From Burkholderiales bacterium (GTDB lineage: Bacteria > Pseudomonadota > Gammaproteobacteria > Burkholderiales > Burkholderiaceae): a stretch of DNA of 9,932 nucleotides. This document shows, piece after piece, positions 1-8,484 of this stretch (the first letter of the stretch is position 1; every line of letters begins with the position of its first letter). The position numbers and the translations under genes are program-made. The DNA lies in NCBI GenBank assembly GCA_903643055.1, contig CAHJWV010000269.1, positions 1 to 9,932 on the forward strand. Direction: 5' to 3'. The notes beneath the pieces were generated by a model. That model did no database searches and was not told the DNA's origin. It was given only the letters and a program-made list of their open reading frames with translations.

Positions 1-319
1 CATTGGCCGCGATCACGACATCGACTTCGTGAAAGATGCTGACCAAGCGCAGGCCTTGCTGGAACTCGACATGGCCGGTGCTGCGCACGCGCAGCGAGTC
101 ATAGGCGAACTTGTTGCGCGTCAGCGTGATGCCCAGCGTGATCGACATGCAGGTGGCGGCTGCCGAGACCAGCAGGTCTTCGGTATTGGTGCCGACGCCG
201 CGGCCCGACATGCTTGCCGGAACCGAGATTTCGTTGCGGAAGCTGGCGGCTTCGATGGTGCCGATGCCGGAGAGATCGCCGCTCCATTGAGCGACGGCGG
301 TGGTGCTTTGTGTTGCCAT
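1..319 (-). CDS. OsmC-family protein, N-terminal part (cut by window edge)
   Basis: Partial gene: the first 106 codons are present and the rest lies left of the window. The reading starts with ATG at 319 (MATQSTTAVAQWSGDL...), 5 bases after the stop of the upstream ligase, so it is the next gene of the same operon. The block GTNTEDLLVSAAATCMSITL (residues 43-62) matches the OsmC/Ohr signature in which a helix carries the first reactive cysteine (Cys57 here); the second cysteine of the family would lie outside the window. OsmC/Ohr proteins reduce organic hydroperoxides through a cysteine pair, though many family members have no assigned substrate. Here it may protect against peroxides made by the oxidase upstream, or it may have been recruited for another thiol-dependent step; that is inference. 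No good Shine-Dalgarno is visible, consistent with translational coupling. The family call is fairly sure, the role is not. Confidence 0.8.
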   Translation of the reverse strand, partial: MATQSTTAVAQWSGDLSGIGTIEAASFRNEISVPASMSGRGVGTNTEDLLVSAAATCMSITLGITLTRNKFAYDSLRVRSTGHVEFQQGLRLVSIFHEVDVVIAAN

Positions 320-324
320 GATGT

Positions 325-2016
325 TCAGACTGCGACTGCGATATTGCCTGGGAGCTTCTGACGCGACGAAGCGTCGGTCAGGACGGTTTTATAGGTTTCG
401 CGCACTTGGCGCTTCAGGATCTTGCCGGTGGTACCGACAGGGATCTGCTCGATCGGCACGACGACGACGGCGCTCAGGAAATGATCGCGCGTCGGGGTAC
501 GGTATTTGTCGTTCAGCGTCTTGAGGATCGTCGCGGCGTCCAGCGTTTTGCCTTCCACCGGCCAGACGAAAGCGACCGGGGCGCTGCCACCGTCGCCAGC
601 GTCAAAGCCCATCACCGACGCGTCCATCGCATCGTCGAACTCAAGCTGGACCTTCTCTTCGATGCGCAGCGTATAGACCGGGCCCTTGCTGCTGTGGATC
701 ACGTCGACGGCGCGGTCCAGGTGATAGAACCAGCCTTCTTCGTCGTAGTAGCCGACGTCGCCGACAAAGAAGTAGCCACGGCGCTGGAAGCGATAGGTGA
801 GCACCGAATCGTTCCAGTAGCCCGGCGTGATCGACGGTGACTTCAGCACGATGGAGCCGATCTGGTTCGGGCCGAGTTCGTTGTCGTTGTCGTCGAGGAT
901 CGCGGCCTTCACGAAGCCATAAGGCTTGCCGATGCAGCGGTCGTACTTCTCGTTGCCGACGGATTGCTCTTTGTGGAACATCGAGTAGCCGAGTTCTGAC
1001 GAGCCGAGCGTGTCCATGAACACCGAGCCTTCGACGCGCTTGCCGCCGACGAGGCGGCTGCCGACGCGGATCAGCTTGCTCACATGGGCTTCGTGTGCGC
1101 TGTCGCCGGTGTTGCCCCAATGCGCCACGGTGCTCAGGTCATAGCGGCCGAGGTCGGCCTTGGAAAGCTTGGCATAGACGGCAGAGAAGGCGCCGACCGT
1201 GGTCGCGCGGAACTTCTCGATGTTGCGCAGCACGTTGTCGGGCGTGACATCGGAGACCACCATCGTCGGCAGGCCGAGGAGGACCGAGCGCAGCAGGTAA
1301 GAGACGCCCACCGAATGGGTGTGCGGGAAGGCGCTCAGGACGCGCTGCGGCGAAGTCATCGGCACCTTCAGGCGGCTGCGCGGGCCGACGAAGTACTGGT
1401 GGTGATGGTTGATCACGCCCTTCGGAATGCCGGTGGTGCCCGACGAATGGCACACCAGCGTCGGGTCGTTCGGCGTGTGCTGGAACGGGTACCAGGCCGG
1501 CAGAGGCTTGGTCGGTGCCTTGATCTGCGAGTCGGCCACGACGAAGCGGATCGCATGGCGGCGGTTCTGCAGGTGCGGCTGCATCGCATCGAAGTGCGAG
1601 GGGTCAGTGACCAAGCCGACCGGCTCGACCTTGTCCAGGAACAGGCCGTTGATCTCGGGCTTCAGGTTGCCGTTGATCAGGATCGGCACAGCACCCAGGC
1701 CCGTCAGTGCGTTGTAGTGGATGAAGTTCTTGAAGTTGTTATCCAGGTAGATAGCAACCGGCGCCTTCGGGCCCACGCCCTGTTCGTTGTACCAGGCCGC
1801 GTACTGGTCGACGATTCGCTTGAGCGAACGCAGGCTGAACGAGATGTGCTTCTCGCCGAACAGCTCGATTTCCTTGTCGAGCCAGATCAGGTTTTCATCG
1901 AGGTTCGGGTTCTCGCGCACGGCCACATGCAGCACATTGCCGCTGCCAAGTGCGGGGTCGTCGTGCAGGCGATCCAGAATGTCCTGCGAGAGATAGGTGG
2001 TGGCTTGCGTACTCAA
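325..2016 (-). CDS. AMP-forming acyl/aryl ligase (ANL superfamily)
   Basis: A full-length adenylate-forming enzyme that would activate a carboxylic acid with ATP to an acyl-AMP and then pass it to CoA or another acceptor. Numbering here is from the TTG start (563 residues). The P-loop HSSGTTGIPKGV lies at about 190-201, the A5-like DTLGSSELGY about mid-protein, the A7-like block GDVGYYDEEGWFYHLDR further on, and the C-terminal TTGKILKR with the A10 lysine at about 532, so both domains and the catalytic lysine are present. Start choice: an in-frame GTG at 2094 overlaps the previous stop but has no Shine-Dalgarno. TTG at 2016 follows AAGAGGA at 7 nt, and the 26 codons between have AT-rich third positions unlike the rest of the gene, so I prefer TTG. 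It is the second of two AMP ligases in the operon. The substrate may be an aromatic acid made by the upstream enzymes (inference); a fatty acid cannot be excluded. Confidence 0.87.
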   Translation of the reverse strand: MSTQATTYLSQDILDRLHDDPALGSGNVLHVAVRENPNLDENLIWLDKEIELFGEKHISFSLRSLKRIVDQYAAWYNEQGVGPKAPVAIYLDNNFKNFIHYNALTGLGAVPILINGNLKPEINGLFLDKVEPVGLVTDPSHFDAMQPHLQNRRHAIRFVVADSQIKAPTKPLPAWYPFQHTPNDPTLVCHSSGTTGIPKGVINHHHQYFVGPRSRLKVPMTSPQRVLSAFPHTHSVGVSYLLRSVLLGLPTMVVSDVTPDNVLRNIEKFRATTVGAFSAVYAKLSKADLGRYDLSTVAHWGNTGDSAHEAHVSKLIRVGSRLVGGKRVEGSVFMDTLGSSELGYSMFHKEQSVGNEKYDRCIGKPYGFVKAAILDDNDNELGPNQIGSIVLKSPSITPGYWNDSVLTYRFQRRGYFFVGDVGYYDEEGWFYHLDRAVDVIHSSKGPVYTLRIEEKVQLEFDDAMDASVMGFDAGDGGSAPVAFVWPVEGKTLDAATILKTLNDKYRTPTRDHFLSAVVVVPIEQIPVGTTGKILKRQVRETYKTVLTDASSRQKLPGNIAVAV

Positions 2017-2093
2017 GGTGATGTCCTCTTGAAATGGGGTATGGCTGACGAAATTGAGAGCTTGGAAAGGATCTTGGTAACGATTACCAGGCA

Positions 2094-3389
2094 CTACCAG
2101 GGGTACTCGGTGGCCCAGGGCTCGTCATCGGCGAACACGTACTTGGGTTTGAGTGGCGTGGCTTGATGGGCGAGCGTTGACAGCGGCACGATCGTGCCGG
2201 GCGCAACCGGTGCCACGTCGGCCTGCACGCCGAGCTGCTGTTGCACCAGATCGGCCAGTGCCTGCTTGGCGCGAGCCTGCAGATGCGGCTCGCATTCGAT
2301 CTCGATGCGCAGCCCGTAGCTGCCATGGCGCGCACGCCAGAACAGCACGCCGAGGTCGGTCGGCAACGAGAACACGGCTTCTTCCAGCTGCACCGGGAAC
2401 AGCGTGCGGCCTTGCACTTCGAACTGGTTGACCGTGCGGCCATGCACGCGAATGGTCGGTAGGTGCCAGCCGCAGGCGCAGTGCTCATGCGAGATGTCGA
2501 CGGTGTCGCCCAGGAAGTAACGCAAGAGCGGCATGGCCTTGCGGTACAGCGGCGTGATTACCAATTGGCCGGTGCCTTCTCGCGAGCATTGGCCGGTCGC
2601 CGGGTCATAGACTTCGCACAGCAGGCGGTCGGCCCAGATGTGAAGCTTCTTGTGCGAGCACTCGCCGGCGATGCTGCCGGTCTCGGTCGAGCCGTAGTCT
2701 TGGTAGACATCGATGCCGCCCCACAGGCGCTCGATGTACGAACGCTTGACCTCGCTCAGGAACTCACCGGCCACCACCAGCGAGCGCAGCGACGGGAAGT
2801 CGCGCTCGGGTGCATAACCGGCCTGGCGAGCGGCGGCCGCGGTGACGAGCGAATTCGTCGGAATCCACCAGGCCACGGTGATCGGCAGGTCGTGCATCAG
2901 CCGCGCCACTTTGGCGTGCGGCATGATCCATGAGCGGTTATCGGCCGGTACCACGACGGCTTCGCGCAGTTCGGCTGCACGGTGCATCTGAAGTGCGGTA
3001 GTCAGCATCGAATACGGCGAACGCACGATCACCATGTCGCCACGTTGCACGTTCACTGCATTGCGGTTGAAGCGGGTGCAGATGTCGTACCAGTCGTCTT
3101 CGGTGAGGTAAGACGGCGTCGGGTCACCGGTCGTGCCGCTGGACTCGTGGTACGTCGCCAGCTCGGCAGTTTCCACGCCCAGCATGCCGAACGGATAAGC
3201 CTCGCGCAGATCTTCCTTGGTCGTGAACGGCACCGCGCTCCAGTCGGCTGCGGTGTGCCCGTTGCCGAGGCGAGCGCCATAAAACGGGGTGGCGCGGGCG
3301 CGCGCCAGCACCGCAGGCAGCTGCGTACGCTGAAGCGCGTGCAATTCTTCTTTCGACTTCCAGTCGCCGAGTTCAGGCAGTGCAGCCAT
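2094..3389 (-). CDS. PaaK-like AMP-forming ligase (phenylacetate-CoA ligase family)
   Basis: A 431-residue member of the phenylacetate-CoA ligase branch of adenylate-forming enzymes, which usually activates aryl acids. Visible motifs: ESSGTTGDPT (about 82-91), in which the usual P-loop lysine is replaced by Asp as part of a GDPT turn; DYGSTETG (231-238) for the adenylate pocket; FLGD (292-295); CACG...VHGR (304-318), the Cys-rich turn and hinge common in PaaK relatives; and LFPVQLEE after the hinge. The C-terminus is short and ends with KPKYVFADDEPW. A TTG at 3398 is in frame, but it directly abuts GGAG; ATG at 3389 has AAAGGAG 9 nt upstream and is the better start. The gene overlaps the 104-residue ORF by 17 bases, which implies coupling. 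By context it probably activates the aromatic acid made by the GriI/GriH-like pair or its oxidised form; whether the acceptor is CoA, an amine or a carrier is not visible. Confidence 0.88.
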   Translation of the reverse strand: MAALPELGDWKSKEELHALQRTQLPAVLARARATPFYGARLGNGHTAADWSAVPFTTKEDLREAYPFGMLGVETAELATYHESSGTTGDPTPSYLTEDDWYDICTRFNRNAVNVQRGDMVIVRSPYSMLTTALQMHRAAELREAVVVPADNRSWIMPHAKVARLMHDLPITVAWWIPTNSLVTAAAARQAGYAPERDFPSLRSLVVAGEFLSEVKRSYIERLWGGIDVYQDYGSTETGSIAGECSHKKLHIWADRLLCEVYDPATGQCSREGTGQLVITPLYRKAMPLLRYFLGDTVDISHEHCACGWHLPTIRVHGRTVNQFEVQGRTLFPVQLEEAVFSLPTDLGVLFWRARHGSYGLRIEIECEPHLQARAKQALADLVQQQLGVQADVAPVAPGTIVPLSTLAHQATPLKPKYVFADDEPWATEYPW

Positions 3390-3687
3390 GTCGGGCAACT
3401 CCTTTCATCAGGCGGGTCAGGTGGCCGCCCATCAAGCCGGCGCGTTTGGCCGGCGTCAAAAACAGGGGGCCCTCTTCGCGGTAACCGCGGTAACGGCGGC
3501 GGGCATCGGCCTTGTACGGGTTCGGGACGTCAGCGGGAATGAGCCGCTTCGCATCGACCCCACCGCCATCGGCCAGGTGATTGGCCCACGGCGATGGCGT
3601 GATCACGCCCTCGCCGGCCACCGACGATTCGGCGTCGGTGCGCAGGCGCGAGTGGCCATCAACGATGTGCAATGGGGCCGTGCTCAT
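3373..3687 (-). CDS. unrecognised 104-residue protein inside the operon
   Basis: I do not recognise this protein. It starts at ATG 3687 with GAAGGACG about 7 nt upstream (the longer in-frame start at 3750 would overlap the oxidase gene and lacks support). It begins 13 bases after the oxidase stop and its last 17 bases overlap the next ligase gene. Good ribosome site, tight packing and full overlap coupling argue that it is real. The protein begins MSTAPLHIVDGHSRL, has a Gly/Asp stretch (ADGGGVDAK), a basic patch (YKADARRRYRGYRE) and ends LMKGVARHGCTA with a single Cys two residues from the C-terminus. No signal peptide, membrane segment, carrier-protein serine motif or obvious zinc cluster is visible. 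It could be a small accessory subunit or stabiliser for the oxidase or a ligase, or a precursor peptide; none of these can be chosen from sequence alone. Confidence 0.75.
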   Translation of the reverse strand: MSTAPLHIVDGHSRLRTDAESSVAGEGVITPSPWANHLADGGGVDAKRLIPADVPNPYKADARRRYRGYREEGPLFLTPAKRAGLMGGHLTRLMKGVARHGCTA

Positions 3688-3700
3688 CAGCGAACGTCCT

Positions 3701-4522
3701 TCACGCCGGCTGCAACTGCTTTCCGGCAGCCTGGGCTTGAGACTGACCATCGGCAGCGCGCAGGAACGCCAGCATCTGGTCGAAGAAGCTTTCGCGGGCA
3801 GCCAGCGCGCGCAGCACGCCGATCGCGACGCCGCGGCGGCCGTCGACGGTGGTGGCCAATTGCAGCGTGATGTTCTTCAGCACTTCGGCGTGGTCGTCGT
3901 CGACGTGGGCATGCAGGTCGAAGAAAGCGCGGTCGCGCGAGCTCAGGTCGGGCCAGGCCTTCGAGATGCCGCGCATCAGCTTCAGGTAAACGTGGCGCAC
4001 GATGCCTTCGGTGCCGAGGCCTAACGCGCCGACGCTTTGGGCTTCGCCGCCGGTGCGGCACAGCGCCTGGAAGGTGTCGATCCAGGCAGCGGTCATCACC
4101 TGCGGGCGGTTGCGCTGCATCTGTGCGCGCGACAGGCCGATGGCTTCGAGGAAGCGGGTGTAGAGCTGCGGGTGCGGAGCGGCTGCGTCGTCGGGATTGA
4201 TGCCCACGGCAAGCAGCTCGCGGCGGTGCTCGTCATCGAGCATGCCGCCTTCTTCCATCGCGTTCGGCAGCAGCTGGGTGCGGTGCTCGGGCAACTCGAG
4301 GTTGGACATCACGGCAAACAGGTACTGCGTGAAGCGGTGGCTGTAGAAGTAGTACTCCTGCAGGAAGCGGGTGATCGCGCCCTTCAAGTCCTTGAACTCG
4401 CCATTCGCAATGGCGTCGAGCAAGGGGTGGTTGATGGCGCGGGAGTTTTCGGCGTAGGTCGCCAGTTCGGCCGCGAACTGCGCGGGCGAAACCGTCGGGG
4501 ATTCAATGATGTGGTTCAGCAT
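3701..4522 (-). CDS. heme-oxygenase-like diiron oxidase (HDO; TenA/PqqC fold)
   Basis: A 273-residue protein of the iron-containing, heme-oxygenase-fold oxidase group, whose known members include CADD, UndA, BesC and the central domain of SznF. The expected ligands can be read in order: Glu56 (QEYYFYSHRF), Glu90 or Glu91 with His99 (MEEGGMLDDEH), Glu172 (LGTEGIVRH), and His204-x3-Asp208-x2-His211 (HAHVDDDH). Those six or seven carboxylate and imidazole positions fit a dinuclear iron site using O2. Family members do N-oxygenation, oxidative C-C cleavage or unusual amination, so the reaction here is open. Placed directly after an amino-hydroxybenzoate-type pathway, oxidation of the aromatic amine to hydroxylamine, nitroso or nitro, or ring/carboxyl cleavage, are reasonable ideas. 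A plain TenA thiaminase is unlikely given the HxxxDxxH ligand set and the neighbours. It starts 48 bases after the aldolase; the ribosome site is weak. The C-terminal tail (about 255-273) is Ala/Gln-rich and probably disordered. Confidence 0.85.
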   Translation of the reverse strand: MLNHIIESPTVSPAQFAAELATYAENSRAINHPLLDAIANGEFKDLKGAITRFLQEYYFYSHRFTQYLFAVMSNLELPEHRTQLLPNAMEEGGMLDDEHRRELLAVGINPDDAAAPHPQLYTRFLEAIGLSRAQMQRNRPQVMTAAWIDTFQALCRTGGEAQSVGALGLGTEGIVRHVYLKLMRGISKAWPDLSSRDRAFFDLHAHVDDDHAEVLKNITLQLATTVDGRRGVAIGVLRALAARESFFDQMLAFLRAADGQSQAQAAGKQLQPA

Positions 4523-4570
4523 GTTGGGCTCTGGATTCGATTCGAAGAAAGGCGCGTTGCCACGCGCGGG

Positions 4571-5407
4571 TCAGTCGGCCAGGACGGCCTGAGGTGCTTG
4601 AGACAGCGAGGGAACCGCCGTTTCGAGCTGCGCGACCTTGGCTTCGGCCGCCAGCAGCGTGCGCTGCAGGTCCACCAGCAGTTGCACCGGATCGGCGCGC
4701 TGGAAGACGTTGCGGCCCAGGCACAGCCCGGCCGCACCGGCCAGCACCGCGCCTTGTGCCAAGGCCTGCAGTGAACGCTCGGAGGTCAGCGTGCCGCCAG
4801 CAAAGAACACCGGGATGTCCATGCCGCGCAGCAGTGTGGGCAGGTCATCGAGGTTGTCGGGCGCGGCCAGCTTCAGCGCGTCGCAGCCCAGCTCCAGCGC
4901 GATGCGCATCAGGTGACGCAAGCGCTTGACCTTGCCTGCGGCGTCGAGGCCGGTGACCTTGTCATAAACCATCGCCAGCACGGGCAAGCCATAGGCATGC
5001 GCCTCGTCGCTCACCAACCCGAGCATACTCAGGTTGTGGGCGTCGTTTTCGCCGTCGAAATTGACTTGCACCGACACCGCGTCAGCGCCGTGGCGCAACG
5101 CCGATTCGACGCTGGTCAGCATCTCCTTGCGATCGGGCTGCGAAGAAATGGAGCTCATGCCGTTGAGCTGCAGCATCACGCCGGCCTGACCGAGCACGTC
5201 GCGCTCAGCCAAGCGTTCGATCATGCCTTTGTGCGCGAGCACGCCGGTCACGGCCGGGTGGCCGATCCATGAAGCGAGATCCTGCGGGCTGTTCAGGCCT
5301 TCCACTGGCCCGATGGTCAGGCCGTGGTCGATGGGAACGATCAGTCCGACCCGCGAATGCGGATAACGGAATCGATTGAGACGAACTCGGGTGCCGGTTG
5401 ATGTCAC
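4571..5407 (-). CDS. DhnA/GriI-type class I aldolase (ADH/ADTH synthase-like)
   Basis: A 278-residue TIM-barrel class I aldolase of the DhnA family. GTG at 5407 is the start, with AGGAG 7-8 nt upstream. Catalytic positions are readable: Asp27-His28 in VPIDHG, Tyr148 in VLAMVYDK, the Schiff-base Lys179 in DALKLAAP, and phosphate-binding ends FFAGG (201-205) and GRNVFQ (231-236). Relatives are plain fructose-bisphosphate aldolase, archaeal ADTH synthase (aromatic amino acids) and GriI, which joins DHAP to aspartate semialdehyde to give the C7 amino sugar-like precursor of 3-amino-4-hydroxybenzoate. Being 46 bases downstream of a DHQS-II/GriH-like gene points to the GriI or ADTH role rather than glycolysis. 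In a bacterium expected to have the normal shikimate genes elsewhere, the GriI-like secondary role is more likely; that is inference. Confidence 0.88.
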   Translation of the reverse strand: MTSTGTRVRLNRFRYPHSRVGLIVPIDHGLTIGPVEGLNSPQDLASWIGHPAVTGVLAHKGMIERLAERDVLGQAGVMLQLNGMSSISSQPDRKEMLTSVESALRHGADAVSVQVNFDGENDAHNLSMLGLVSDEAHAYGLPVLAMVYDKVTGLDAAGKVKRLRHLMRIALELGCDALKLAAPDNLDDLPTLLRGMDIPVFFAGGTLTSERSLQALAQGAVLAGAAGLCLGRNVFQRADPVQLLVDLQRTLLAAEAKVAQLETAVPSLSQAPQAVLAD

Positions 5408-5453
5408 GTTGGTGCTCCTAGGGGCTTAAACGCTCTTGGCCTTGAGGATTGAT

Positions 5454-6788
5454 TCAGGATTCGATGATGTGTTCATCGACCTTGATACCGACGTGCCGAC
5501 CGGGGGAGGCGCGGTGGCCGAGGATGCGCTCGCCCGGCTTCAGGTCGGTGATGTTCAGCGGCTTGCCGGCTTCGGAGAAGATCCGAACGTGCCAGTCGTC
5601 TTGCATGATCGTGTTGATGCGCTCGCCACCGGCAAACTCGGCTTCGATCAGGCGCAACGGGCGCACTTCGGTCTTCATGCGACCTACGGCGGCGCGGCGG
5701 ATCTTGCCGTCGGTGCCGACCATCGCAATGCTGCTGCCCGCCGACAGCTCGGTCATGTAGTTGGTGCGGTTGTCAGCGTTGTAGACATAGCTGTGCACGG
5801 CACCAGCGTTGACGCGGAAGGGGCGCAAGTCCATGTACGGCAGGAAAAACACTTCCGGGCAGCACAAGATGCCGCCTTGCGACGTCGAGCCGACGACCAT
5901 GCCTTCGGTGGGCGAGAACAGGCTAGACACATCGATGCAGCTGCGATAGCCCATGCCGACCGGGCGGCTGGAGATGACGGTGGCGGTTTCGATCGTCATG
6001 CGCTCTTCGACCAGCGGGTCGAGGCGGCGCATCACTTCTTCGAGGCTGCCATGGTCGCGTGGCGAGAACGAGACGCCATCGGCGCCGACTTCCATCACAC
6101 CCAGCGAGACGATCGCGTCGTCCACATCGCGTGGGCTGGCGATTTCCTTGATCAGCACCGTGTCGGTGGCTTGCAGCGATGCAATGACCAGCTCGAGCGG
6201 AATGTTCGTCGGGTCGCGGAAGTGAACCATCAGGAAGTCGTGACGGTTGCCGAACTCGATCGAGGCGTGCAGGCTGGGTGCGTCATCGACGTAGGCGCGA
6301 TAGCAGGTGCGCAGGCCATCGGCTTGCAGCTTGCCGATGATGTCGAGGTTGCGACTGGAGATCACCACTTGGCCATCGGTGCCGGAATCGCGGCGTGCCG
6401 AGGCGAACAGCGGCAGTTGCGAGATCGCCTCAAGTTCACGGGCGTCGTCAATCTGAATGATTTTCTTGATGCTGCCCGGCACCAAGGGGCCCAGGCGCTC
6501 GACGTTCGACGGCAACAGGATCACGCCGGTGTAGCGCATGCGGACCGCACGTTCGAAGACCGCGCGGTCTTCATCGGTCGTGGTGTTCGCAGTGTCGTAC
6601 CAGAGGGTGACGGCGTCGTTGTCGGACAGGCGGTTGCGATCGCCTTCAACGCGTTCGAGCTTGACGCGCTGGCGCTGATTTTTCAGCTCCGCGGTTTCCT
6701 GGAAATCGGGCGAGGACGAGCCACGGCGTGCGGGTCCACGGTTTTGACCTTTCACAGGTGCGGCAGCTTCTTGGTGTTCGATGGTCAT
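5454..6788 (-). CDS. 3-dehydroquinate synthase II family / GriH-like 3-amino-4-hydroxybenzoate synthase
   Basis: A 444-residue member of the DHQS-II family, unrelated to normal bacterial AroB. The core runs from LWYDTANT (62) to the end; signature blocks are RPVGMGYRSCIDVSSL (275-290), TEGMVVGSTSQGG (294-306), the RPFRVNAGAVHSYV block (322-335) and a small C-terminal beta domain ending VDEHIIES. Archaeal members make 3-dehydroquinate by NAD-dependent oxidative deamination; GriH converts the same type of C7 substrate to 3-amino-4-hydroxybenzoate, keeping the nitrogen. The aldolase next door and the downstream oxidase and ligases favour the GriH-like role. About 60 N-terminal residues (Gln/Arg/Ser-rich) precede the core and are an extension or a start-site uncertainty. 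ATG at 6788 is preceded by an in-frame stop and has no Shine-Dalgarno; a composite hairpin ends 8 nt before it. It is the first gene of the operon. Confidence 0.88.
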   Translation of the reverse strand: MTIEHQEAAAPVKGQNRGPARRGSSSPDFQETAELKNQRQRVKLERVEGDRNRLSDNDAVTLWYDTANTTTDEDRAVFERAVRMRYTGVILLPSNVERLGPLVPGSIKKIIQIDDARELEAISQLPLFASARRDSGTDGQVVISSRNLDIIGKLQADGLRTCYRAYVDDAPSLHASIEFGNRHDFLMVHFRDPTNIPLELVIASLQATDTVLIKEIASPRDVDDAIVSLGVMEVGADGVSFSPRDHGSLEEVMRRLDPLVEERMTIETATVISSRPVGMGYRSCIDVSSLFSPTEGMVVGSTSQGGILCCPEVFFLPYMDLRPFRVNAGAVHSYVYNADNRTNYMTELSAGSSIAMVGTDGKIRRAAVGRMKTEVRPLRLIEAEFAGGERINTIMQDDWHVRIFSEAGKPLNITDLKPGERILGHRASPGRHVGIKVDEHIIES

Positions 6789-6796
6789 GATCAGTT

Positions 6797-6863
6797 TTGA
6801 TTCGAAGGAGGGTTGTCAGATGAAAATTGCGGCGTCGGTCGCGCCGCAATTCCTTCGAATCAA
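6797..6863 (-). promoter_or_regulatory. composite hairpin in the operon leader
   Basis: Two nested perfect inverted repeats. The outer arms are TTGATTCGAAGGA (6797-6809) and its complement (6851-6863). The inner arms are AATTGCGGCG (6825-6834) and its complement (6842-6851) around a 7-base loop; a 15-base bulge lies on one side only. In the minus-strand transcript the inner GC-rich stem is followed by TTTTC, a weak terminator-like layout, and the whole structure ends 8 nt before the start codon at 6788. The only Shine-Dalgarno-like AAGGA in the leader is locked in the outer stem. It could be an attenuator, a translational switch or an mRNA 5' stabiliser; the sequence shows the fold, not the function. 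Confidence 0.6.
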
Positions 6864-6947
6864 TTTATCTGATTATCTCGACGAATTGAATCTATTAATT
6901 TTGTAATAAATTTGCACGATCGTTCACGCTTGCCTGGTTGCCGCATT

Positions 6948-7057
6948 TCACTCGCTTTGCGAGAGTGAGATTTGCATCAACGTACGCCATTAACAAATCC
7001 TTAATAATTTTATTAACGTTTGACGTTGTTAATGGTGATTTGAGCGCTCACTATCAC
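6948..7057. repeat. cluster of three dyads in AT-rich leader/promoter DNA
   Basis: Three inverted repeats follow each other upstream of the biosynthetic operon: TCACTC/GAGTGA at 6948-6968 with a 9-base loop; CCATTAACAA (6987-6996) with its perfect complement TTGTTAATGG (7026-7035), enclosing the small dyad AACGT-TTG-ACGTT (7015-7027); and an imperfect dyad at 7034-7057 centred on the perfect palindrome TGAGCGCTCA (7041-7050). They may be operator sites for a regulator not encoded in this window, or transcript structures if the operon is transcribed from the motif at 7200. Confidence 0.45.
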
Positions 7058-7184
7058 TTTTGAGCTTTGTATCCAAACGATCTTCTATTCATCCCTACGC
7101 GACTCATGGCATTTGCCGACGTTTGAACCAGTTATCGAAATAGAGGAATGTGCAATATGTGACGGCAGTGATACAGTTATTCGA

Positions 7185-7200
7185 TGCAATTGGCATGCCA
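7185..7200 (-). promoter_or_regulatory. candidate sigma-54 promoter for the biosynthetic operon
   Basis: Read on the minus strand from 7200 the sequence is TGGCATGCCAATTGCA. Against the sigma-54 consensus TGGCACG-N4-TTGCW it has one mismatch (T for C) with exact GG-to-GC spacing. Transcription would start near 7174 and give a leader of about 385 nt before the ATG at 6788, long but possible. No gene other than the operon lies downstream. A single motif of this length can arise by chance, so this is a candidate only. Confidence 0.5.
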
Positions 7201-7311
7201 CATTCAGTTCTCCCTGGCGATGACTACAAATAGAACTTTACATACGAATTGAGTTTATTTGCATTCAATCTTTGATCGCTTCGGGCGTTATCACAGGCGA
7301 GCAAGAATATC

Positions 7312-7350
7312 GCGTGCAAATATGCAAAGCGAATTATCAAAATTGCACGC
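7312..7350. promoter_or_regulatory. candidate enhancer-type inverted repeat behind the operon promoter
   Basis: GCGTGCAA (7312-7319) and its exact complement TTGCACGC (7343-7350) lie 31 bases apart, about three helical turns, on the same face of the DNA. The centre is about 130 bp behind the minus-strand sigma-54-like motif, a usual distance for an enhancer-binding activator. The half-site order (GTGC then GCAC) differs from NtrC boxes, so the activator, if any, may be another one. Confidence 0.35.
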
Positions 7351-7751
7351 TGGCTAACTGGTCGTTGGCAGGCCGTGTATCCGAGGGGTTGGAAATTTTT
7401 AGTGCAATCAAGTTCGGCGCTAGGTTGAATGGCTACTTGCAAAGGGCACGATCGGCCTGACTCTTCGAGCATCAGAAAGAGCACGTGAGTGCAGTTCTGG
7501 TGGATGAAGGTGTTTGAGTGCTTCTCCGGCGGGTAGTCCACGTGTGGAGCGGTCGTTTGCCGATAAGAACGCTCGGAGCCTAGCGCTCGGCGGGCGCGGT
7601 GACTCTCAATCAGAGACACGCTTCAACGCACACGATCTGTAGATGTGGCTGAATAACCGATGTGGTGGGCGGCGCCAAATCGGCTTGGCTGTGCTGCACA
7701 GAGATGTGATCGCAACCGGTCGAATCAGCGCGTTCCGATTGCGATGCCAAT

Positions 7752-7867
7752 CGCAGTGTTTGAACTTTGCGGGATCGGCGATTCCGCGGGATGCCGCCTG
7801 CATGCACTCAAAGCGGTGCATGCATTTCGACGGCGACCGGCGCCTTGTGCACCAACGCAGTGTTTGA
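7752..7867 (+). repeat. 12-base direct repeat flanking the NtrC-type site
   Basis: CGCAGTGTTTGA is present at 7752-7763 and again at 7856-7867, 104 bases apart, with the palindrome at 7799-7824 between the copies. This may be a trace of a local duplication in the control region; no function can be assigned. Confidence 0.5.
7799..7824. promoter_or_regulatory. NtrC-type binding site upstream of glnK
   Basis: Perfect 9-base arms TGCATGCAC (7799-7807) and GTGCATGCA (7816-7824) are separated by 8 bases. The central 18 bases (7803-7820) follow the NtrC box TGCACCA-N4-TGGTGCA with the outer five bases of each half exact. It lies about 155 bp behind the sigma-54-like motif at 7967, a normal enhancer position, and in front of the classic NtrC target pair glnK-amtB. 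A second, tighter dyad TGCACA-gcag-TGTGCA at 7906-7921 may be a weaker accessory site. Confidence 0.65.
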
Positions 7868-7966
7868 GCGCCATGCGAATTCACATCGGCGTCAAATTGG
7901 TGCGATGCACAGCAGTGTGCAAAGCGTTTGGTCTCAACATGGGGCGTGATCCCTGCGGCGTGCCCA

Positions 7967-7982
7967 TGGCATAGAAGCTGCA
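7967..7982 (+). promoter_or_regulatory. candidate sigma-54 promoter for glnK-amtB
   Basis: TGGCATAGAAGCTGCA matches TGGCAC-N5-TTGCA with two mismatches (T for C; C for T) and exact GG/GC spacing. Start of transcription would be near 7993, giving a leader of about 150 nt that includes the short ORF at 8030. Position, the upstream NtrC-type site and the target genes support it together. Confidence 0.6.
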
Positions 7983-8029
7983 AAAAGATCGAAACAACCC
8001 CTCACGAAATCACCGCTGGAGAACGTTGC

Positions 8030-8484
<455 letters not shown>

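Follow-up and report, generated by a model that had tools for sequence, protein, structure and literature searches.

The stretch of DNA analysed here (contig CAHJWV010000269.1 of a Burkholderiales bacterium, 9,932 nucleotides, GC content 61%; referred to below as the window) carries on its minus strand a compact operon for a putative small natural-product pathway. Its genes encode a pair of proteins resembling the 3-amino-4-hydroxybenzoate (3,4-AHBA) synthase enzymes GriI and GriH, a heme-oxygenase-like diiron oxidase (HDO), an orphan protein, two adenylate-forming ligases (LigA and LigB) and an OsmC-family protein. We give even chances to the reading that the operon leads to a coupled and diazotised 3,4-AHBA product without a nonribosomal peptide synthetase (NRPS) or polyketide synthase (PKS). 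The features of the window are as follows.

GriH, 5454–6788, minus strand: 444 amino acids, similar to 3,4-AHBA synthase (PF01959), with an N-terminal extension; DHQS 294 bits (Pfam)
GriI, 4571–5407, minus strand: 278 amino acids, similar to DhnA-type aldolases; DeoC 105 bits (Pfam)
HDO, 3701–4522, minus strand: 273 amino acids, heme-oxygenase-like diiron oxidase; Haem_oxygenas_2 85 bits (Pfam)
orf104, 3373–3687, minus strand: 104 amino acids, orphan; no Pfam match
LigA, 2094–3398, minus strand: 434 amino acids, aryl ester (amide) ligase of the NatL2/AjiA1/BagE type by sequence; AMP-binding (Pfam); likely start ATG 3389
LigB, 325–2094, minus strand: 589 amino acids, diazotase-like (nitrite-activating, N–N bond-forming) ANL ligase; AMP-binding (Pfam); alternative start TTG 2016
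OsmC, 2–319, minus strand: OsmC-family peroxiredoxin-like protein starting with ATG 319, cut by the window end; OsmC 28.6 bits
glnK-amtB, from 8140 onward, plus strand: divergent from the minus-strand operon

GriH and GriI are separated by 46 nucleotides, GriI and HDO by 48, and HDO and orf104 by 13. The orf104 and LigA frames overlap by 26 nucleotides, or by 17 if LigA starts from ATG 3389, which is preceded by the sequence AAAGGAG. LigA and LigB overlap by one nucleotide, and the start of the OsmC gene lies 5 nucleotides past the end of LigB, the gene itself leaving the window. The Pfam AMP-binding scores of the two ligases are 40 and 128 bits. An initial annotation of this DNA had described six tightly packed genes on one strand, and the open reading frame (ORF) and Pfam calls confirm all of them at their places; no NRPS or PKS is found among the genes identified in the window, as it had also said. 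The interval it delimited, 325–6788, encloses these six genes and leaves out the OsmC gene, which is part of the set.

The first two genes of the operon are adjacent, and both families score above the Pfam cut-off. GriI matches the ADH-synthase subfamily with 193 bits and BagB/FevI with 110 bits (NCBIfam; both below cut-off, which is 500 for the latter). It aligns with the MJ0400 aldolase with 137 bits, the lysine of its 'dalK' segment falling on that of 'divK'; we take this residue to be the Schiff-base lysine. The best NCBIfam models for GriH are PRK02290.1-3 (290.8 bits), PRK02290.1-4 (243.5 bits) and BagC/FevH (240.5 of the 750 bits required), none of them above cut-off. As the BagC/FevH and BagB/FevI cut-offs are both missed, GriH is not a BagC/FevH equivalog. 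The GriI-linked Streptomyces protein of locus L026 (515 bits, above cut-off) and the GriH proteins of genomes G1484 and G080 and of Sinorhizobium medicae likewise have PRK02290.1-3 as their best model; in genome G1204 this model comes second after BagC/FevH. Three lone PF01959 proteins from Gammaproteobacteria, with no GriI found beside their genes, fit instead the 3-dehydroquinate synthase II (DHQS-II) equivalog PRK02290.1-5. A tree of 22 rows, with long branches and no archaeal sequences, splits these three from the window GriH with a support of 100/100. The cyclase thus sorts with GriI-linked proteins and apart from these three lone DHQS-II proteins, which supports the GriI/GriH pair proposed in the initial annotation. 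On the sequence evidence GriH is of the GriH type, and the assignment of the two proteins as a 3,4-AHBA synthase pair is supported.

The family is rare: PF01959 occurs in 4 of 274 gammaproteobacterial genomes, and GriH in 2 of 399 genomes of the order (one match being weak, E 4e-4) and in 1 of 379 genomes of the family. A search of 5.8 billion proteins gave 1284 GriH relatives among 7995 scored candidates. The best 120 of these 1284 comprise the window's own protein, one metagenome protein at 76% and 118 others at 55–65%. Many of the listed relatives are myxobacterial (Haliangium, Sorangium, Stigmatella, Archangium and Pyxidicoccus are among them), and many are named 3-amino-4-hydroxybenzoic acid synthase by JGI. 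No GriH relatives were found in viral contigs and phages.

LigA is a PaaK-like protein scoring 445 bits on the BagE/FevW model, below its cut-off of 800. Among solved ligases it is closest to 6siw (425 bits), which we take to be NatL2 in agreement with the published residue numbers, and to AjiA1 (416 bits), presumably the ligase of the AJI9561 pathway; the next match is 9s3l with 194 bits. LigA and NatL2 are identical in 202 of 426 alignment columns (47%). In NatL2, according to the accessible part of PMC7204872, zinc is bound by Cys248, His254, Cys308 and Cys310, Lys418 reaches the other subunit and Arg156 lies in the pocket of the second ring. All six residues are identical in LigA; Glu235 of NatL2 is replaced by Asp. 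Arg68, named in the same part of that paper, cannot be placed in the LigA alignment, the printed NatL2 chain having Gln at this position. LigA is, judged by sequence, an aryl ester (amide) ligase of the NatL2/AjiA1/BagE type. NatL2, as described in the available text, forms an aryl ester; this turns into an amide by rearrangement if no amidohydrolase is there to close the benzoxazole ring (PMC7204872). No condensing amidohydrolase is found among the window genes, the region downstream of OsmC being outside the window, and by analogy an ester or amide is therefore expected as the product of LigA.

LigB matches the AvaA6 diazotase model of NCBIfam with 406 bits, missing its cut-off of 975; the next family follows with 188 bits. 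Its best matches in the PDB are 9xb8 (325 bits), 9bq0/8tf7 (305 bits) and 8ztz (305 bits), followed at a distance by one with 96 bits. Of these, 9bq0/8tf7 is Tri17, a ligase forming N–N bonds of the CreM kind (PMC11705231 and PMC11429834, in the portions available), and the closest named solved relative of LigB is thus an N–N enzyme. The SSGTTG motif, the glutamate of GSSELG and the lysine of TGK are intact. A LigB relative on a Streptomyces plasmid (L026/L071) with a diazo-type context reaches only 357 bits on the AvaA6 model and so also remains below cut-off; it lies two genes from a nitrosuccinate lyase (789 bits, cut-off 650), which is itself a neighbour of a CreE-like protein. By its family placement LigB groups with the nitrite-using ligases which form N–N bonds or diazo groups, the CreM/AvaA6 family being the closest among ANL ligases. 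The two AMP ligases of the initial annotation accordingly stand in part: LigA is of the ester- or amide-forming type, and LigB does not fall with the ordinary carboxylate ligases.

Six other loci with both GriH and GriI were compared with the window: those of an S. medicae plasmid (L024), a Klebsiella michiganensis plasmid (L025) and a Streptomyces plasmid (L026/L071), and those of genomes G080 (L042), G1484 (L063/L064) and G1204 (L065). The three plasmids stand for 13 plasmid records with GriH (H6, H18 and H12 being those examined); the other ten are further S. medicae (H7–H11) and Streptomyces (H13–H17) records. A LigB relative is present in all six loci, from proteobacteria to Streptomyces, with AvaA6 as the best model each time (238–399 bits); in Streptomyces the distance from it to GriH/GriI is about 20 kb. 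The three loci where PF01959 stands alone yielded no LigB relative. LigA has a relative in one of the six clusters, that of G1204, which holds both ligase types and an Amidohydro_2 gene. OsmC recurs in one, that of S. medicae, as a fusion with LigB, and HDO in two, those of G080 and G1484. The conserved part is thus the core GriH–GriI–LigB and not the exact gene order. The latter, for which the initial annotation had proposed a search in other Burkholderiales, is not found in the loci read, and neither strong GriH genome match shares it.

The surroundings of this core vary. In S. medicae plasmids (L024:1–19879) it is accompanied by an NRPS, a protein annotated as cobalamin-dependent, an HpaB-like hydroxylase and a SagB-family dehydrogenase, next to GriH (44%), GriI (49%) and a diazotase-like ligase fused to OsmC. 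In the gammaproteobacterial locus L065:1152–11155, GriI and GriH are joined by a ring hydroxylase, one diazotase-like and one NatL2/BagE-like ligase, a transporter-like ORF, a nitroreductase-fold protein and an amidohydrolase, which looks like a benzoxazole-type set plus a diazotase-like ligase. On the K. michiganensis plasmid, from a fruit fly (L025:9563–15496), GriH, GriI, an AvaA7-like short-chain dehydrogenase/reductase (SDR), a major facilitator superfamily transporter and a diazotase-like ligase have transposase genes on both sides. In the G1484 cluster a flavin adenine dinucleotide (FAD)-dependent aromatic-ring hydroxylase is split into two overlapping frames (L063:17526–19365), i.e. 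there is an assembly error or a broken gene. In two further Streptomyces plasmid loci (L069:13036–16755 and L070:13030–16713) the neighbours of a LigB relative include ketosynthase pairs as well as isochorismatase and anthranilate-synthase-type genes, a hint that diazotase-like ligases also occur in other aryl pathways.

HDO has the heme-oxygenase fold and keeps all six metal ligands (the set E/H/E/H/D/H), which bears out its earlier description as an HDO-type oxidase. The N-oxygenases HrmI, RohS and SznF have the same fold and the same set of six ligands. The best NCBIfam model is the CADD family (68 bits, cut-off 200), and CtCADD is a top fold match, ranking first in Foldseek. The HDOs of G080 and G1484 are 46% alike, and each is only 27–30% like that of the window; HDO therefore probably joined GriH/GriI clusters more than once. 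In genomes of two phyla the best HDO match is 39% among 392 genomes (63 matched) and 43% among 282 genomes (27 matched). Among HDO relatives on contigs of at least 10 kb, 6 of 17 share an identical contig size with GriH relatives; the myxobacterial linkage of HDO and GriH (in Haliangium, Hyalangium and Stigmatella) is read from this equality of size, which in one of the six, a whole genome, indicates presence in the same genome only. In 20 loci of distant HDO relatives (28–40%, L001–L020) no GriH, GriI, LigA, LigB or OsmC was found at E 1e-4. The more distant relatives P0062 and P0063 (40–42%) carry a PF00027 domain, presumably of the cyclic-nucleotide-binding family. Relatives P0011, P0014 and P0023 are fused to a cupin domain, reminiscent of SznF, an enzyme which makes an N-nitroso group according to the available part of PMC11705231.

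The OsmC protein exceeds the Pfam cut-off slightly (28.6 against 27.5 bits) and scores 84 bits on the SACOL1771 family, for which the cut-off is 166. The C-terminal OsmC domain of the S. medicae LigB relative reaches 29.6 bits against the same Pfam cut-off, and this fusion ties the OsmC of the window to the function of LigB. The product of orf104 has no Pfam, NCBIfam or PHROG match, and in the search of 5.8 billion proteins (5 candidates scored) it found itself only. Its fold prediction is uninformative (pLDDT 55). As its codon usage is coding-like (0.291, compared with 0.175 for the best of 490 off-frame windows and 0.308 for the worst of 98 in-frame windows), orf104 is probably a gene, the weakest of the set.

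From the gene content, the family placement, the kept ligand sets and the recurrence of the core, the following reactions and product may be proposed. GriI and GriH would convert central metabolites to 3,4-AHBA. LigA would adenylate an aryl carboxylate, most likely that of 3,4-AHBA, and join the activated unit to a phenol or amine group on a second ring (a second hydroxybenzoate), giving an ester which possibly rearranges to an amide. LigB would use ATP to activate nitrite and convert the ortho-hydroxy aromatic amine to a diazo group (an o-diazoquinone, cf. cremeomycin); the steps of the two ligases could take place in either order. HDO would carry out an oxygen-dependent step, most likely on nitrogen, be it the conversion of an amine to nitrite or a preparatory oxidation of the aryl amine. 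This step is the least certain part of the pathway. OsmC may assist LigB, or may protect the cell or serve for detoxification. A nitroso or nitro product had been suggested in the initial annotation; a diazo product appears likelier, since LigB falls with the nitrite-using ligases forming diazo groups or N–N bonds (by the AvaA6 model and the solved relatives).

A number of observations weigh against this pathway. None of GriH, GriI, HDO, LigA and LigB reaches a curated NCBIfam cut-off. Among the six other GriH and GriI clusters, no LigA was found in five, no OsmC in five and no HDO in four, and the exact gene order of the window was absent from the loci read. CreD and CreE are absent from the genes identified in the window. 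The best two plasmid matches of LigB (L069 and L070) come from Streptomyces loci which contain type II PKS-like genes and others of the isochorismatase type, and in which no DHQS-II is annotated, a GriH search not having been made there. CrxM, a CreM homologue of the crx cluster, is needed for products without a diazo group, as stated in the accessible part of PMC11429834. In the fold comparison HDO has HrmI ahead of CADD by just 1.3 Z, while Foldseek places CADD and BesC above HrmI, and likeness of fold does not show function.

The source of nitrite deserves separate consideration. CreE was not found in G080, G1484, G1204 and the S. medicae and Klebsiella plasmids; the plasmid of the query itself was matched, a control which tests the search itself and not its reach. 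Nitrosuccinate lyase gave weak matches in all six genomes, and matches above cut-off in none of them and in none of 14 controls. Lack of the aspartate–nitrosuccinate (ANS) nitrite genes is also described for 72 of 134 ava-like clusters in the part of PMC10777205 at hand. Nitrite may then come from outside, from nitrate respiration or from HDO. The last version, in which the pathway obtains its oxidised nitrogen from HDO (turning an amine into a nitro, nitroso or nitrite-yielding product) and a diiron enzyme replaces the ANS flavin enzyme and lyase in feeding a CreM-type diazotase, seems doubtful to us. Clusters without HDO lack CreE as well, so the absence of CreE alone does not favour HDO as a substitute and the idea is a guess. 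If it were true, nitrogen supply by HDO would be a second bacterial way to aryl diazo nitrogen, in Gram-negative 3,4-AHBA clusters, and the recurring HDO would be a concrete candidate for the missing nitrite source of ANS-less clusters.

The closest rival to the diazo pathway is a route without an N–N bond, in which both ligases act on carboxylates in the style of closoxazole or bagremycin/ferroverdin and HDO converts the aryl amine to a nitroso group, the product being an iron-binding nitroso-hydroxybenzoate ester or amide. It is unlikely in our estimate, while still a serious possibility. The Pyxidicoccus closoxazole pathway has two AMP ligases, each of which attaches 3,4-AHBA units (PMC12118335, available in part), a single cluster with BagE/FevW and a 3,4-AHBA pair yields both bagremycins and the iron-chelating ferroverdin (as given in the excerpt of PMC6692506), and the case of CrxM points the same way. 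The lead of the diazotase model for LigB (406 against 188 bits) and the N–N activity of its closest named solved relative argue for a diazo product instead, and no benzoxazole-type amidohydrolase, o-aminophenol oxidase or copper chaperone is found among the identified window genes. A plain benzoxazole cluster of the closoxazole kind was rejected on the lack of the amidohydrolase in the window. It is improbable that LigB diazotises the amine only for N2 to be lost, as in the avenalumic and p-coumaric acid pathways, leaving a plain hydroxybenzoate ester. The SDRs of G080 and of the Klebsiella plasmid do have the denitrifying reductase AvaA7 as their best match (75 and 83 bits), and deamination may for this reason be the version used by these two clusters; both scores are far below the cut-off of 400, the lead in G080 is small (75 against 67 bits), and no such reductase is found among the identified window genes.

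Two further explanations concern particular members of the operon. HDO could be a self-sacrificing p-aminobenzoate synthase of the CADD type which supplies the second aryl unit, and its best family model and a top fold match are indeed those of CADD. The sacrificed residues of CtCADD, Tyr27 and Lys152 (PMC13108848, in the part available), align pairwise with Leu35 and Leu182 of HDO. With both residues replaced by Leu this candidate was rejected, and we hold it to be very improbable. Scarcely credible is the case in which the GriI/GriH-like pair belongs to an archaeal-type shikimate route (to dehydroquinate) and its neighbours are unrelated. PF01959 was also detected in three archaeal control genomes and MJ0400, which GriI matches, is archaeal. 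Against this, the best subfamily of GriH is common to GriI-linked proteins and is not the DHQS-II equivalog of the three lone ones, the pair is clustered with LigA and LigB, and all 7 relatives searched have a normal AroB. The archaeal-type shikimate enzymes, named beforehand as the finding that would overturn the assignment, are not what is seen, and this candidate was rejected on subfamily, tree, gene context and AroB in relatives.

The diazo pathway proposed here may be compared with the closest known systems, whose published descriptions are cited from the parts available. The cremeomycin-type cluster (cre: CreH/I, CreM, CreE and CreD) shares with the window a GriH/GriI pair and a CreM-like diazo ligase (PMC11705231, PMC11429834); the window lacks CreE and CreD and adds a NatL2-type ligase, HDO and OsmC. 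The avenalumic and p-coumaric acid clusters (ava, cma) have a 3,4-AHBA pair and the diazotase family best matching LigB, but depend on a denitrifying reductase and a type II PKS, to which ava and cma proper add ANS genes (PMC10777205); none of these is identified in the window. The bagremycin/ferroverdin clusters (bag/fev) have a 3,4-AHBA pair and a BagE/FevW ligase which LigA resembles; their o-aminophenol oxidase, copper chaperone, tyrosine ammonia-lyase and FAD oxygenases (PMC6692506) stand in contrast to the HDO and diazotase-like ligase of the window. With the nataxazole and AJI9561 ligases NatL2 and AjiA1 LigA shares, at 47% identity to NatL2, the zinc site, whereas the window has no condensing amidohydrolase and its starter would be 3,4-AHBA rather than 3-hydroxyanthranilate. 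The closoxazole clusters (clx, pfx) also combine a 3,4-AHBA pair with two AMP ligases (PMC12118335). GriH is 63% identical to Pyxidicoccus fallax protein P0111, possibly PfxD. The differences are that LigA matches NatL2 (425 bits) far better than it does 9s3l (194 bits), which is probably ClxA, that the amidohydrolase is lacking and that LigB is of the N–N kind.

Each enzyme of the window is thus of a known kind, while their combination looks new from the sequences: a NatL2-type ligase, a diazotase-type ligase, HDO and OsmC on a 3,4-AHBA pair are not described in the open-access literature searched. The aryl diazo pathways described in the accessible part of PMC11705231 are those of Streptomyces and other actinomycetes. 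If the proposed pathway is true, it adds small Gram-negative pathways in which a NatL2-type ester ligase and a CreM-type diazotase act together on a 3,4-AHBA unit.

Between the operon and glnK about 1.2 kb (window positions 6900–8100) are without a recognisable gene, and the GC content drops to 44% at 7001–7500. A scan of positions 6750–8160 gave one promoter and one terminator, not above the yield from shuffled sequence, and no Rfam match at gathering thresholds was found in the window. The glnK-amtB DNA is matched in 139 of 150 genomes of the order from which G080 was drawn (best 75% over 1.8 kb). This order is that of G001, a Sideroxyarcus genome, and presumably corresponds to Burkholderiales in GTDB.

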